Origin: Thermoplasmata archaeon | GTDB lineage: Archaea > Thermoplasmatota > E2 > DHVEG-1 | DNA length: 53,293 bases | Assembly: GCA_003942085.1 (NCBI GenBank) | Contig: DQIQ01000006.1 | Span: 1 to 53,293, forward strand | Direction: 5' to 3' | In this document: positions 23,957-30,065 of the stretch, in pieces | Layout of the letters: the number at the start of each line of letters is the position of its first letter | Numbering within the stretch: position 1 is the first letter of the stretch | Translations under genes and position numbers: made by a program | The notes under the pieces: model-generated | The model's database searches: none | Told to the model about the DNA's origin: nothing | The model's input: the letters and a program-made list of their open reading frames with translations, nothing else

Positions 23957-24889
23957 ATGAAAAACCTTGCAGTCGGCGTCTTCCATGATGACTTGCTCAG
24001 TCGAGAGCTAGGGAAAAAAGGAACAGAAAGTGATATCCTGATGTGCAACAAAAAAACCGATGACGAAATCTTTACGTTTCTTTCCCCGGTCGAAGACAAG
24101 CTTAGTCCAAAAAGTCAAATCATGTCTGGCATTGATGCTGCTGTTGTTTCTGTCGGCTCGTTTACACCGGAGGTTGGTGAGACCATTCTGATGCTTGATG
24201 CATTTGGTATTTCAAAAGGCATCATAGTCGTCCCCCCGTATACGGACATGACCCCGATACAGAAATTACTGAAAGGAACGTCGCTGGCATCATTTCAAAT
24301 TCAAGAACGAGACCCAGCGGGCATTGTAAATCACCTGCATACCATCACTCCTCAACGAGATCTCAGTTCAGCTCCTGTGGTCATGATTGATCATTCGTTC
24401 AGCGTAAAAGGAGTAGGTGAAGTCATCCTTGGGTTTGTGAAAAAAGGAATCCTACATAAACATGACACCCTCCAGCTTTTCCCAGCAAACAAAGAAATCA
24501 TCGTCCGTTCGATTCAGATGCAAGATGCAGATTTCGATGAAGCAGAGGCAGGCTCCCGGGTTGGTCTTGCTATCAAAGGAGCGACCGCAGAGGAAATGAA
24601 ACGAGGATCCATTCTATGCAAGACAGATAGTGCGACGTTACGCTCGACCATCACCTTATCATTTACAAAAAACCGTTTTTACTCCGAGGAAATCCGGCAA
24701 GGACTTTTTCATGTGACTGCTGGGATGCAGACGGCCCCTGCTAACATTACGAAAATCAACAACGGGTCTCTCACCGTAGAGTCTGAGAAAGCGTTGGTGT
24801 ACATGCAGGATACGCGAATGCTGCTGATGAATCTTAATGCAAAGAAGCTGCATGTCATGGGTCACGGAACACCATTACAATCCCCATAG
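23957..24889 (+). CDS. EF-Tu/SelB-like protein lacking a recognisable GTP-binding P-loop
   Basis: A 310-residue protein built like a translation GTPase. The first 120 residues keep the general fold pattern of a SelB/EF-Tu G domain (AVVSVGSFTPEVGETILML then DAFGISKGIIVV), but no GxxxxGKS/T P-loop, DxxG switch or NKxD motif is visible. About residues 135-225 form a clear EF-Tu domain 2 (MIDHSFSVKGVGEVILGFV, then HDTLQLFP, then GSRVGLAIKGA); a domain-3-like end follows. It is therefore probably a pseudo-GTPase paralog of archaeal SelB/EF1A, with an RNA or ribosome contact role that I cannot specify. A TATA-like sequence at about 23924-23931 fits a leaderless start at the ATG at 23957. Confidence 0.65.
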   Translation: MKNLAVGVFHDDLLSRELGKKGTESDILMCNKKTDDEIFTFLSPVEDKLSPKSQIMSGIDAAVVSVGSFTPEVGETILMLDAFGISKGIIVVPPYTDMTPIQKLLKGTSLASFQIQERDPAGIVNHLHTITPQRDLSSAPVVMIDHSFSVKGVGEVILGFVKKGILHKHDTLQLFPANKEIIVRSIQMQDADFDEAEAGSRVGLAIKGATAEEMKRGSILCKTDSATLRSTITLSFTKNRFYSEEIRQGLFHVTAGMQTAPANITKINNGSLTVESEKALVYMQDTRMLLMNLNAKKLHVMGHGTPLQSP

Positions 24890-24923
24890 GAGTTTGATTT
24901 TGGGATTCCTTTACCAGAAGAAT

Positions 24924-24935
24924 ACATTTATTAAG
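24924..24935 (+). promoter_or_regulatory. Promoter element shared by the tandem C25 genes, copy 1
   Basis: ACATTTATTAAG occurs here, ending 33 bases before the ATG at 24969. The identical 12 bases lie at 26481-26492 before the next C25 gene. It contains a TATA-like TTTATTAA, giving a predicted leader of about 11 bases. Confidence 0.5.
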
Positions 24936-24968
24936 TATAATAGATACTATATAGCCTGGGGAAATTCT

Positions 24969-26480
24969 ATGAACAGACTTTGGATGAATTTTGGAAAGAA
25001 ATCACTTGTACTGATGATTGTATGGTTTGGTTTTATCCTCACGCCAACAATGACCGTTGGGATAACCAAAGGCCAGGAGAATCGAATTAGTTATGCCAAC
25101 AATAGCCCTCTAAAAAATAGCGGACCATCTATCTACGATCTTCTCATCATCGCGCCACGACAATATGCCGAGGCGTTACAGCCACTTATTGTTCATAAGG
25201 AAGCGGTGAATGTTCGAACACATCTGGTCACCCTGGATCAGATATATCAGCAGATGTACTGGCAGGGAAGGGACGGACCTGAAAAAATAAAATATTTCAT
25301 TAAAACTGCTAAGGAAGAATGGGGGATTACCTACGTCATGCTGGTAGGAGATTTCCAAAAGATCCCGGTGCGGTATGTGTACAACGCTGATAACAACTCG
25401 TTCTGGGATGAACCTTGTTTCATCTCTGAGCTGTACTATGCGGACCTGTATGATAAAAACGGGAACTTCTCAAGCTGGGATATCAGCAATAACGGGATAT
25501 ATGGAGAATGGTACGGAGATGTCGCGAAAGATCCTGACATCGACCTGTACCCTGATGTGTACGTCGGACGGCTTGCATGCATCAACGAAGCAGAGGTAAA
25601 AACCATGGTGAAGAAAATCATCACCTATGAGACGACCGCGTATGGACAGGACTGGTTCCATCGGTTTGTAGTCATCGCTGGTGACACCTATCCTGCGTCT
25701 GAGAATCCGAACTGGACCGGTAACGAAGGAGAAGTAAATACCCTTAATGCGATCGAGAACATGTCAGGATTCGAACCCACGAAGCTGTGGACCTCAGACC
25801 TTTCGTTCACAGGACCGAAAGTCGTCATCCGTGCAATAAATAAAGGTTGCGGTTTTTTGTTATTCGAAGGGCACGCCAACGCGTTCTCATGGAGCACCCA
25901 TCCGACGAATGATTCAGGCACCTGGATCGACGGACTGAACACGGTTACCATGGATCTTCTGAGGAACAAGCAGATGCTCCCGGTGTGCGTCGTCGGCGGC
26001 TGTCACAATAACGAATTCGACGTCACCCCAAGGAATATTCTCAAAGGGCTGAAAGAAGAAGGATTACATTATTTCAAGAGTGGGGGGGTACCGTTCGGCT
26101 CGTTTTGGAAATACACCTGGATACGGGAATGCTGGGGATGGAAGCTTGCCAGGATCAGCCAAGGAGGATCGATTGCAACCATTGGATGCACCGGCCTGGG
26201 GATGTCTAAAGAAGATAAACAATCCTTCAGTGGCGCAGGGGATTACCTTGAGCCGACATTCTTCCATGAATACGGGGTCAATGGCACCACGATCCTTGGG
26301 AAGGCATGGGGAAACACCATTACCGATTATCTGCAACACTACCCAGTTGACTGGCAGACACCCGCGGCAAAAGATTCCGCTATCGATGCCAAAACCGTAC
26401 AACAATGGGCTCTCTTCGGAGACCCAAGCCTCAAGATCGGCGGATATTCACCGTCTGAAATGAATGGCGCGACAAGGTAA
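24969..26480 (+). CDS. Secreted C25 (gingipain-like) cysteine peptidase, tandem copy 1
   Basis: A 503-residue exported protein from the ATG at 24969; an in-frame start at 24837 would overlap the preceding gene and bury the signal peptide, so it is rejected. Residues 11-30 form the signal sequence. The C25 domain begins almost at once (YDLLIIAPRQYAEALQPL), without the long pro-region of the copy at 8680-10476. The probable catalytic residues are His302 (FEGHANAF) and Cys345 (VVGGCHNNEF). A Ca2+-loop-like YDKNGNFSSWDISNNGIYGE lies at 161-180, and the protein ends ALFGDPSLKIGGYSPSE. It is very similar to the next gene, so a local duplication is likely. The presumed role is extracellular protein digestion; processing and specificity are unknown. 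Confidence 0.85.
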   Translation: MNRLWMNFGKKSLVLMIVWFGFILTPTMTVGITKGQENRISYANNSPLKNSGPSIYDLLIIAPRQYAEALQPLIVHKEAVNVRTHLVTLDQIYQQMYWQGRDGPEKIKYFIKTAKEEWGITYVMLVGDFQKIPVRYVYNADNNSFWDEPCFISELYYADLYDKNGNFSSWDISNNGIYGEWYGDVAKDPDIDLYPDVYVGRLACINEAEVKTMVKKIITYETTAYGQDWFHRFVVIAGDTYPASENPNWTGNEGEVNTLNAIENMSGFEPTKLWTSDLSFTGPKVVIRAINKGCGFLLFEGHANAFSWSTHPTNDSGTWIDGLNTVTMDLLRNKQMLPVCVVGGCHNNEFDVTPRNILKGLKEEGLHYFKSGGVPFGSFWKYTWIRECWGWKLARISQGGSIATIGCTGLGMSKEDKQSFSGAGDYLEPTFFHEYGVNGTTILGKAWGNTITDYLQHYPVDWQTPAAKDSAIDAKTVQQWALFGDPSLKIGGYSPSEMNGATR

Positions 26481-26522: not shown

Positions 26523-27956
26523 ATGAAAATAGCAGTATCTAGAACATTGATGACGGCTGGCGTAGTCTTTCTTTTCTTTGTACCAGCTGTCGGGCCGATC
26601 ACTCTTGGAACCATGAACGATGCCCAACCTTCGCTCTTTATCAGAGAGCCGGGTCAGTCCAACGTCAATATCTACTCACTGCTCATCATCACTCCAGCGG
26701 TTTTTAAAGAAGCACTCCAACCCCTTGTGGTTCATAAAAAATCAATAGGTCTCAGTACCAGACTTGTCACGCTTCGCGAGGTCTATCACCAGATGTACTG
26801 GCATGGTCGCGACAATGCAGAGAAAGTCAAATACTTCATAAAAACAGCGATGGAAGAATGGGGAGTGCGCTATGTCTTGCTCGTTGGGGGAAGAAGCAGC
26901 CAGTTCCAACCGACCTGGTACTGCCCGGTACGATACGTCAGCATGGTCGATGACTGGGATGCTGAATATCTGAGTGATCTGTATTTCGCTGATATTTATG
27001 ACTCATCAGGAAATTTTTCCAGCTGGGATAGTGACAACGACGGCATCTACGGGGAATGGTACCCAGGGCAAACAGCCCAGGACATAAACATCGATCTAAC
27101 CCCTGATGTTGCAGTTGGCCGTCTCCCCTGTCGTAGTGAAGAAGAAGTCGAAACCATGGTCCGGAAGATCATCACCTATGAGACGACTGCGTTTGATCAA
27201 CCATGGTTTGCAACTATGCTTGTTGCCGCCGGTGATACCTACCCGCAGACCCAAAATGCGAATTGGACTGGACCTGAAGGTGAATATTACGGCAACCGTG
27301 CTATAGAAAACATGAGCGGATTTACCGCGACCCGACTTTATACCTCTGATCAAACCTTTACCGATAAAAAAGATGTGATCAGAGAATTCCGCGCTGGATG
27401 GGGGTTTGTGTACCTTGTCGGTCATGGCAGTCCGAAGCAATGGGGAAACAATGCACTGAACGGTACAGCGTTTGTTCAAGGACCGAACAGCAATGATATG
27501 TGGCGTTTTCGAAACAAGAACAAACTGCCGGTCTGCGTCGTCAGCGGTTGTCATAACAGTCAGTTCGACGTCTGCCTGAGACGCGCGTTCAACGCGTCCA
27601 CTCGCTGGAAACAAGAAGGTATCCCAGAATGCTGGAGTGAACGAATACTTCGCGAACCGACCGGTGGTTCGATCGCAGCACTCGGGTGCACCGGGCTCGG
27701 ATACACAAAAGAAGACAAGATCTCCTTTAAAGGCGGCATCAATGAACTTGAGGGAGCATTCTTCCATGCGTACGGACAGGATCATGTTACAGTTCTTGGA
27801 GATACCTGGGCTGCAGCCATCACATGGTACAGACAGACGTATCCGGTCGCATGGAATTCATCTGGATTGGGCGACTCATGGATCGATGTAAAGGTCATAC
27901 AGTCTTGGGCACTGCTCGGGGATCCCAGCCTTCAAATCGGTGGTTATCCAGAGTAA
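26523..27956 (+). CDS. Secreted C25 (gingipain-like) cysteine peptidase, tandem copy 2
   Basis: A 477-residue exported protein with a signal peptide at residues 1 to about 24. The C25 domain starts at YSLLIITPAVFKEALQPL. The probable catalytic residues are His301 (LVGHGSPKQ) and Cys343 (VVSGCHNSQF). YDSSGNFSSWDSDNDGIYGE at 159-178 has the D-x-D-x-D-G spacing of a calcium loop. The end is ALLGDPSLQIGGYPE. It differs from its neighbour by a short insert (RSSQFQPTWYCP) before VRYV and by a longer segment after the catalytic cysteine. Its own promoter element and GGGGA SD suggest separate transcription of the tandem copies under the same control. Confidence 0.85.
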   Translation: MKIAVSRTLMTAGVVFLFFVPAVGPITLGTMNDAQPSLFIREPGQSNVNIYSLLIITPAVFKEALQPLVVHKKSIGLSTRLVTLREVYHQMYWHGRDNAEKVKYFIKTAMEEWGVRYVLLVGGRSSQFQPTWYCPVRYVSMVDDWDAEYLSDLYFADIYDSSGNFSSWDSDNDGIYGEWYPGQTAQDINIDLTPDVAVGRLPCRSEEEVETMVRKIITYETTAFDQPWFATMLVAAGDTYPQTQNANWTGPEGEYYGNRAIENMSGFTATRLYTSDQTFTDKKDVIREFRAGWGFVYLVGHGSPKQWGNNALNGTAFVQGPNSNDMWRFRNKNKLPVCVVSGCHNSQFDVCLRRAFNASTRWKQEGIPECWSERILREPTGGSIAALGCTGLGYTKEDKISFKGGINELEGAFFHAYGQDHVTVLGDTWAAAITWYRQTYPVAWNSSGLGDSWIDVKVIQSWALLGDPSLQIGGYPE

Positions 27957-28021: not shown

Positions 28022-28237
28022 ATGTCCTTACCGCTAGATGTCTTAGAAAAAGCAGTGAACCAAAAACTTCTCCTTCTGTTAAAGGATGGAAGACACATCG
28101 AAGGCAAGCTTTTAGGATATGATGAATACATGAACCTGGTGCTCGATGAAGTCGAAGAAACCAAGGACGAAACCAAGCGCCGACTCGGGAGAATTATCCT
28201 GAGAGGCAGCAATGTTGTCAGTATTGCCTTTATATAA
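28022..28237 (+). CDS. Sm-like archaeal protein (Lsm/SmAP)
   Basis: A 71-residue Sm-fold protein. Sm1 is visible as [28 protein letters not shown] (described in pieces: [14 protein letters not shown] at about 23-36, MNLVLD next) and Sm2 as [11 protein letters not shown] near the end. Such proteins form hexamer or heptamer rings that bind U-rich RNA and take part in RNA processing. A highly charged [10 protein letters not shown] loop lies between Sm1 and Sm2. The ATG at 28022 is the natural start, placed by a TATA box 28 bases upstream. Immediately downstream lies a candidate structured small RNA with a U-rich single-stranded stretch, a possible ligand. Confidence 0.93.
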
Positions 28238-28244
28238 TCGAAAA

Positions 28245-28254
28245 GCATATATAG
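28245..28254 (+). promoter_or_regulatory. Promoter of the candidate small RNA
   Basis: CGAAAAGCATATATAGG has an A-rich BRE followed by a TATA element at about 28245-28254. It predicts a transcript start near 28277, which is exactly where the long terminal stem of the candidate RNA begins. A second TATA-like TTTATTAAG at 28268-28276 is a weaker alternative. Confidence 0.45.
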
Positions 28255-28276
28255 GGGTTATTACTATTTATTAAGT

Positions 28277-28357
28277 GGAAGGAATTGGGCTGGTAGTTGT
28301 TATTTTGTTAGAGTGCATCCCATCCCCTCCTAGTGAGGCCAGCCGTCCTTCCCTTTT
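28277..28357 (+). ncRNA. Candidate structured small RNA between lsm and hutU
   Basis: The terminal stem is perfect: GGAAGGA (28277-28283) pairs with TCCTTCC (28346-28352), and GGCTGG (28288-28293) with CCAGCC (28339-28344), separated by an ATTG/G internal loop. A CCTC/GAGG hairpin (28326-28329 with 28335-28338, loop CTAGT) stacks directly on it. The remaining inner region is unpaired: a U-rich UAUUUUGUU stretch (28301-28309) and a C-rich GCATCCCATCCCCTCC (28315-28330, partly in the hairpin). A T-rich run (TTTTATTCTTCTT) follows the stem, like an archaeal terminator. It has its own TATA box 27 bases before the stem, and hutU has a separate promoter. It is not a tRNA. Expression is inferred, not shown. 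Confidence 0.5.
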
Positions 28358-28412
28358 ATTCTTCTTGTAACAAAGTTTTTGTATATCGTATTCTTTGTGC
28401 AAACACGAGATA

Positions 28413-30065
28413 ATGACACGAGACGTGAAGGTCCAACGAGGCAGCACACTTCGATGCAAAGGATGGAAACAAGAAGCGATCCTACGTATGCTGGAAAACA
28501 ACCTTGAGAACGCAGAAATCCCAGAGAAATTGATCATCTACGGCGGTACAGGAAAGGCAGCGAGGAACTGGAAATGTTACGATGCGATCGTTTCGGCACT
28601 CACAAATTTAGGTCATGATGAAACCCTGCTGATCCAATCAGGAAAACCTGTCGCAATCTTTCAGACATGGTCAACCGCACCACGCGTACTTATCGCAAAC
28701 TCAAATCTTGTTCCTCATTGGAGCACCTGGGAAAAATTCAGACAGCTCGAACAACTCGGACTGACGATGTACGGACAGATGACCGCGGGATCCTGGTGCT
28801 ACATTGGGACTCAGGGGATAATCCAAGGAACCTATGAGACGTTTGCTGCATGTGCACGAAAACATTTCAAAAGCGATCTTCGCGGAAAAATCGTTCTCAC
28901 CGGTGGTCTGGGCGGCATGGGTGGAGCTCAACCACTCGCTGTGACCATGAACCATGGGGTGTGCCTAGCTGTTGAATGCGACGAAAAACGGATCGACCGG
29001 CGAATCAATGCAGGATTTTGTGATAAAAAAGAAACAGACATTGACAAAGCAGTCGACCTTGTGACCCAAGCAAGAGATGAAAAAACACCACTTTCAGTGG
29101 GTGTTCTTGGCAACTGTGCCTCCATCATGCCGGAGCTTGTCAAAGATGGATTCAGACCAGATGTGGTCACCGATCAAACCTCAGCGCACGATGAACTAAA
29201 CGGATATGTTCCCGCTGATTATTACGGACGCTCCCTGAAACAAGCCAATGAGTTACGAACGAAGAACCCAAAGAAATACATCCAGCAATCCATGGAAAGC
29301 ATGAAACAGCATTGTAAAGCGTTGCTTGATTTTCAGAAAAAAGGATCTATTGTTTTTGATTATGGAAATAACCTCCGTGGCCAAGCTTTAAAGGCAGGGT
29401 TAAAGAACGCGTTTGAATACCCCGGTTTTGTCCCCGCGTACATCCGCCCGATGTTCTGCGTCGGTCGCGGACCATTCCGCTGGCTAGCACTCACTGGGAA
29501 CCCAGAGGACATTTTAAAAACAGATAAAGCAGCGTTGAAGATGTTCCCGGAAGATATTGTCCTGACTAACTGGATTTCCCTTGCCGAGAAACACCTGCCC
29601 TGGGAAGGACTGCCTGCCCGCGTCTGCTGGCTGGGGTATGGAGAGCGTGCTCAATTTGCCCTGATCATCAATAAAATGGTGCGAGAAAAAGAAATCGGTC
29701 CGATAGCAATCACCAGGGATCATCTTGACAGCGGGAGCGTCGCATCCCCGTACCGAGAAACAGAATCAATGCGGGATAAAAGCGATGCCATCGCAGACTG
29801 GCCGCTCCTCAACGCGCTCTTGAACTGTGCAGCTGGAGCTGACAGTGTACAGATACATAACGGTGGTGGCGTCGGCATCGGTCTTTCCACCCATGCAGGT
29901 ATGGTCGTTGTCTGCGATGGAACAAAAGAAACCGATGAGCGAATCAAGCGGGTTTTTACGACAGACCCCGGGATAGGTGTCGCACGACATGCGGATGCAG
30001 GATATAAAGAATCAATTGACCTTGTAAAAAAAACCGATATCCGTATTCCTATGATAAAAAAATAA
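28413..30065 (+). CDS. hutU: Urocanate hydratase
   Basis: A 550-residue NAD+-dependent enzyme that converts urocanate to imidazolonepropionate, the second step of histidine breakdown. Signatures are [13 protein letters not shown] near the N-terminus, [28 protein letters not shown] (the NAD-binding glycine-rich region), [14 protein letters not shown], and GQALKAG then [12 protein letters not shown] with GRGPFRW; the length matches the family. The ATG at 28413 is chosen over a TTG at 28395. A TATA-like GTATATCG at about 28380-28387 predicts a near-leaderless mRNA. Histidine ammonia-lyase, which makes its substrate, is the next gene on the opposite strand, with ends 30 bases apart. Confidence 0.97.

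Follow-up and report, generated by a model that had tools for sequence, protein, structure and literature searches.

Genetic organization of the lsm–hutU region

The window, a stretch of 53,293 nucleotides from a Thermoplasmata archaeon (contig DQIQ01000006.1), contains the lsm gene for an Sm-like protein (28022–28237, plus strand; Pfam LSM, E = 1e-22) followed on the same strand by hutU, the gene for urocanate hydratase (28395–30065; TIGR01228, 869.9 bits). Two tandem, similar open reading frames of ~500 amino acids with secretion-like N-termini are located upstream of lsm (24837–26480 and 26523–27956) and look like genes for related peptidase-type surface proteins. An earlier note made from the sequence alone had placed an independent small RNA with its own promoter and terminator between lsm and hutU, and the elements that it described were recovered here, all on the plus strand. 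The BRE/TATA promoter CGAAAAGCATATATA (28239–28253) is centered 27 nt 5′ of the first stem base. The RNA core of 76 nt (28277–28352; covariance model match of 90.5 bits, E = 6e-27) has its ends joined by two helices, P1 with seven pairs (GGAAGGA at 28277–28283 and TCCTTCC at 28346–28352) and P2 with six (GGCTGG at 28288–28293 and CCAGCC at 28339–28344). All four strands are paired in the predicted fold; compensatory changes bear out the 5′ strands, in far families in the case of P2, and the class alignment bears out the 3′ strands. An internal CCTC/GAGG hairpin is also part of the minimum-energy fold. The sequence CTTTTATTCTTCTT stands 3′ of the stem, and the U-rich tract at 28353–28367 is the presumed terminator; in most relatives P1 is likewise followed by a T-tract. 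The transcript probably extends from ~28275 to 28365, both ends being predicted, with hutU outside the RNA.

The folding energy of the sRNA (–25.3 kcal/mol, compared with –20.8 ± 3.0 kcal/mol for shuffled sequences; z = –1.5) was equaled by 16 of 200 shuffles and by itself is not clearly above chance. Searches with ARAGORN and Rfam produced no family match to tRNA, H/ACA, C/D guide RNA, RNase P RNA or SRP RNA, in agreement with the earlier note, which had argued against the first two identities. One tRNA aside, neither the sRNA in the window nor 20 related loci matched Rfam; low-threshold matches were rejected as chance only. The sRNA is absent from Rfam 15 and does not belong to DicF as a sequence family. 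As the fold z-score is weak and ARAGORN and Rfam gave no match, the case for an RNA gene rests on comparison.

Conservation across Thermoplasmatota

A DNA search of 59 genomes, from the same genus up to the same class, revealed the region in every member of the genus but one at 90–93% identity including the flanks; the exception (G002, 84% complete) showed the paralog only. In most members of the family, an island of 82–96% identity is confined to the promoter and RNA (query positions 2–120) and the flanks have diverged. The spacing between BRE/TATA and RNA is constant in relatives. The covariance model search of related Thermoplasmatota that the earlier note had advised was performed with a model built from 16 sequences, and 74 of the 80 class genomes gave a match. 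The stems carried compensatory changes and, when checked for loss in relatives that share this gene order, persisted. Across the phylum, 236 of 390 sampled genomes gave a match, and the remaining 154 reflect in part strict filters and incomplete genomes.

Pairing of the stems reached 98% in the class alignment, and two P1 pairs showed compensatory changes. RNAalifold missed P1 in the first MAFFT alignment because the P2–P1 spacer varies between 0 and 3 nt; later alignments were given the structure for the class and were model-based for far sequences. Of the 13 pairs, 11 had changed on both sides among the 25 far sequences, amounting in this alignment fitted to the structure to 49 cells versus 13.9 in shuffles, a value that none of 500 shuffles reached. 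The far RNAs share a common organization of P1, P2, an apical stem and the nearly invariant 13-nt loop UGCAUCCCAUCCC; the apical stem (UAGAG or UCAGA with UUCUA or UCUGA) and its loop replace the CCTC/GAGG hairpin.

The lsm gene is the conserved upstream neighbor: at 84 copies, out-of-class families among them, it precedes the sRNA by 55–205 nt in the same orientation. Some contigs appear twice in this count, and two of its entries represent a second copy in tandem, at a distance of 295 nt. For the majority of the window's own family, and likewise for several families beyond the class, lsm and the sRNA are immediate neighbors, with the sRNA on the 3′ side. An all-genome pattern scan returned 83 stretches, among them contig LSSI01000013.1 of 'Thermoplasmatales archaeon SM1-50', with Thermoplasmatota-type bins in all but two. 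JAJPHT010000022.1 ('Proteobacteria') and JAIVGT010000238.1 ('Halobacteriales') were rejected as carriers outside the phylum, as they probably are misnamed bins of the same phylum.

On this comparative evidence the element in the window is a real small RNA gene conserved across Thermoplasmatota, with its transcription predicted, which bears out the independent small RNA proposed earlier. The conserved BRE/TATA box and U-tract, together with a target encoded elsewhere, mark it as a predicted trans-encoded sRNA.

Complementarity to the ftsZ leader

The earlier note offered no function for the RNA, and the complementarity described here, like the phylum-wide spread, is new. The reverse complement of the sRNA loop recurs elsewhere in each genome between two co-directional genes, in sense orientation and directly before a Shine–Dalgarno sequence and start codon. 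The gene 3′ of this site is ftsZ (TIGR00065, 338.9 bits, above the cut-off) and the gene 5′ encodes a ribbon-helix-helix protein, for which CdrS is the top NCBIfam match, below the cut-off. In the ~50 genomes in which leaders were read, a second block, CUACCAG, usually accompanies the loop complement. The leader in the window's group consists of AGGGGATGGGATGCACCCC, a strong hairpin, CAACTACCAG and AATAGGAGG in that order.

The sRNA and ftsZ leader of the window's genome can form 16 and 10 contiguous pairs. The main block GTGCATCCCATCCCCT (28313–28328), which includes the phylum-wide loop, matches AGGGGATGGGATGCAC in its own ftsZ leader, and the second block CTGGTAGTTG (28290–28299), which covaries between families, matches CAACTACCAG in a helix that ends 4 nt 5′ of the Shine–Dalgarno sequence, which itself is uncovered. 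The complementarity lies near the ribosome binding site of the ftsZ mRNA, as expected of an antisense sRNA that targets this gene. In the joint fold both helices form and the leader hairpin is retained between them (–77.4 kcal/mol, compared with –23.6 and –36.6 kcal/mol for the monomers). Ungapped helix scoring was used in place of whole-length duplexfold, which was dominated by extra GAAGG/CCTTC pairing. In the leader at L072 (G000:C36) and in other leaders, hairpin arms GAAGG and CCTTC resemble the P1 arms of the sRNA (GGAAGGA/TCCTTCC). The target is on another contig in the window's genome; in G014, whose chromosome is a single contig, ~0.5 Mb separates it from the sRNA.

The two blocks can merge in family f7, giving 33, 32 and 28 contiguous pairs in G051, G053 and G056, respectively. 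The sRNA linkers GGUUGCAAAGGCAUCCC, GGUAGUAUAGCAUCCC and GGUAGCAGGCAUCCC in this family differ by genome and each is matched by its own leader. In family f10, pairing is shifted to a block of 19–20 nt that includes the stem strand. When leaders were permuted among genomes without regard to relatedness, 4 of 20,000 permutations were as good as the true assignment within f7, and none of 20,000 either in f7 and f10 combined or in all 19 genomes. Shuffled leaders performed as well in at most 4 of 200 cases in 42 of 43 class genomes; G046 was the exception, with no significant pairing relative to shuffled leaders. The leaders of the second ftsZ paralog in the same genomes, used as a control, showed no pairing with the sRNA (mean score 19.9 versus 48.9), and the sRNA is specific for one ftsZ paralog. 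Overall, pairing between the sRNA and the ftsZ leader is strongly supported by these sequence comparisons.

Outside the class, GGGATGCAC was present in sense orientation in 10 of 29 ftsZ leaders of other families and in antisense orientation in none of the 29. In 12 of 19 leaders, with representatives in families f38, f41, f42, f45, f48, f49, f51, f52 and f53, an exact or near copy of GGATGGGATGCAC precedes another ftsZ-family gene, which is short. In G204 the product of the short gene contains a tubulin/FtsZ domain and, here too, a CdrS-like gene stands 5′ of it. At L405 (755–1111 and 2–667, both on the minus strand), in a far family, the sRNA site accompanies a short FtsZ-family gene, in place of the usual long FtsZ, that lies 3′ of a CdrS-like gene. 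Pairing was short (9–13 bp) or absent in some out-of-class genomes when the nearest ftsZ was taken. The regulated ftsZ paralog seems to differ between families and, as pairing is retained while the paralog shifts, the pattern suggests that the link to FtsZ-family genes rather than to one locus is kept.

A model for control of FtsZ synthesis

The interpretation favored here, with a probability of ~0.86, is that the sRNA is a trans-acting antisense RNA of roughly 80–90 nt that controls FtsZ synthesis; Thermoplasmatota probably control cell division with antisense RNA. The two-part P1/P2 stem would present the loop UGCAUCCCAUCCC for pairing with GGGAUGGGAUGCA in the ftsZ leader, between the CdrS-like gene and ftsZ. 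The leader site can itself form a small predicted hairpin around AUGGGAUGCA that exposes the site and, therefore, a loop–loop contact between sRNA and leader hairpin would be a natural first step. The contact may then extend, with the P2 5′ strand CUGGUAGUUG opening and annealing to CAACUACCAG, a few bases 5′ of the Shine–Dalgarno sequence, so that the two-block pairing would bridge the strong leader hairpin. Most likely, ribosome loading would be blocked and FtsZ would be lowered relative to the upstream regulator. Repression is probably the direction of control, by analogy with DicF and DinR and with the way in which sRNA41 has been proposed to act within polycistronic mRNAs; the calculated accessibility of the Shine–Dalgarno sequence favored neither direction consistently. 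The position of the site between the CdrS-like gene and ftsZ suggests that FtsZ is controlled relative to the regulator, and the gene neighborhood suggests Lsm as a putative helper of the sRNA. We infer the order of the pairing events, as we do transcription, any role of Lsm and the physiological signal.

It is fairly unlikely that the sRNA is instead a housekeeping or multi-target RNA, with a loop that recognizes a protein or numerous mRNAs and with ftsZ as only one of several partners. The 13-nt loop is near-invariant throughout the phylum though the length of ftsZ pairing varies, each genome has a few extra GATGGGATGCA sites, above the reversed control, and one extra site near a tRNA is conserved in the genus. 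However, the 12-mer occurs just 2–5 times in most class genomes, sRNA copies and the ftsZ leader included.

Pairing with the ftsZ leader could alternatively activate or stabilize the mRNA, for example if structure in the leader were opened or a site of RNase cleavage masked. This outcome would fit with pairing that ends upstream of the Shine–Dalgarno sequence and leaves it uncovered, and has an archaeal precedent in the stabilization of some targets by Methanosarcina sRNA154 (PMC5867862). Nevertheless, it is considered unlikely: predicted Shine–Dalgarno accessibility showed no consistent rise when the sites were held unpaired, and the bacterial ftsZ-pairing sRNAs known so far repress.

That the shared sequence is a DNA-binding site at both loci, for example for the CdrS-like protein, with RNA pairing incidental, is very improbable. 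DNA binding is a property of ribbon-helix-helix proteins, and ftsZ has the regulator gene as its neighbor, but the two sites are always in opposite orientation relative to transcription and lie within transcripts rather than at promoters. Moreover, a hairpin separates the two blocks of the bipartite element, contiguous complementarity reaches 33 bases with covarying linkers, and the RNA stems covary. A chance intergenic hairpin, to which only the z-score of –1.5 lends itself, has a negligible probability in the face of phylum-wide conservation, compensatory changes and target covariation.

Loop-related sequences in cellular and viral genomes

Apart from the lsm-linked gene, the window's own genome carries a second, diverged sRNA copy (L002:187–257; G000:C54) with its own promoter and unlinked to lsm. 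Many relatives likewise have a second copy, with loop variants CATCCCATCCCTCC and CATCCCATCCCATCC. One member of the genus has an exact 25-nt copy of the loop region upstream of an unrelated gene (L167; G008:C117:27137–27161), which perhaps is a decayed sRNA copy. A further element conserved in the genus comprises a TATA-like box, GGGATGGGATGC and a TGCCAG/CTGGCA hairpin (L165, L166, L168, L170 and L171; weaker at L164 and G000:C89:11717). Its region at L164 is upstream of a tRNA-like start. The element could be another sRNA target or a sponge.

The invariant loop also occurs in viral sequence, on hairpins that score 28–34 bits with the model, in three IMG/VR contigs of which two are nearly identical: L425 (3986–4036), L427 (4344–4394, minus strand) and L429 (4967–5032, minus strand). 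The hairpins are located between structural genes and their stem differs from that of the host RNA. The L425 hairpin is beside portal, head protease and major head genes, and that in L429 is beside terminase. They are possible virus-borne copies of the host RNA. Among other viral matches, those in L430 and L431 were rejected as antisense and inside coding sequence, and those in L426 and L428 look like chance. A tentative and somewhat doubtful extension is that a dedicated sRNA–ftsZ circuit dates from the ancestor of Thermoplasmatota and, by setting FtsZ synthesis, forms a core of the archaeal cell cycle, and that the viral copies take over host division.

Comparison with known systems

To our knowledge, almost nothing is known about control of cell division at the post-transcriptional level in archaea. 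No sRNA for an archaeal ftsZ was described in the literature found, with subscription journals and preprints outside the search. The control of ftsZ in that literature is by the DNA-binding protein CdrS, which acts at transcription of the haloarchaeal CdrS-ftsZ2 operon (PMC7439475, PMC8406309); a text search of PMC8406309 for 'small RNA' gave zero occurrences. The operon resembles the target described here in that a ribbon-helix-helix gene is directly 5′ of ftsZ.

The ftsZ-antisense reading would account for an extremely conserved, unannotated RNA beside lsm and, through the loop copies, would tie it to viruses. If correct, the sRNA and its target form an unusually old pair that has been kept over the whole phylum with matched changes in RNA and mRNA. 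The pairing is a directly testable prediction in cultivable Thermoplasmatota.

Trans-acting archaeal sRNAs are exemplified by sRNA154, sRNA162 and sRNA41 of Methanosarcina mazei (PMC3510493; reviewed in PMC5867862), which similarly base-pair with polycistronic mRNAs, at their leaders or at internal ribosome binding sites. Their targets concern nitrogen or energy metabolism or a transcription factor, in contrast to ftsZ here, and they are unrelated in sequence to the Thermoplasmatota sRNA, with reported conservation within Methanosarcina.

Antisense action on ftsZ is already known in bacteria: DicF, DinR and StfZ are ftsZ-pairing small RNAs of Enterobacteria (PMC5069750, PMC10907235, PMC9628754). 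The Thermoplasmatota sRNA is like them in its complementarity to ftsZ mRNA near the ribosome binding site. However, there is no sequence or structural relation, as judged by the lack of an Rfam match, and the sRNA is a new, previously uncatalogued RNA family. DicF is prophage-borne, which recalls the viral loop copies, a notable if putative parallel. Processing of longer transcripts gives rise to DicF and DinR, whereas the Thermoplasmatota sRNA has its own predicted promoter; DinR needs Hfq, and the Thermoplasmatota sRNA adjoins an Sm-like gene. It is the age and conservation of the sRNA that are surprising. DicF, DinR and StfZ are narrowly distributed, whereas the Thermoplasmatota sRNA spans the phylum.
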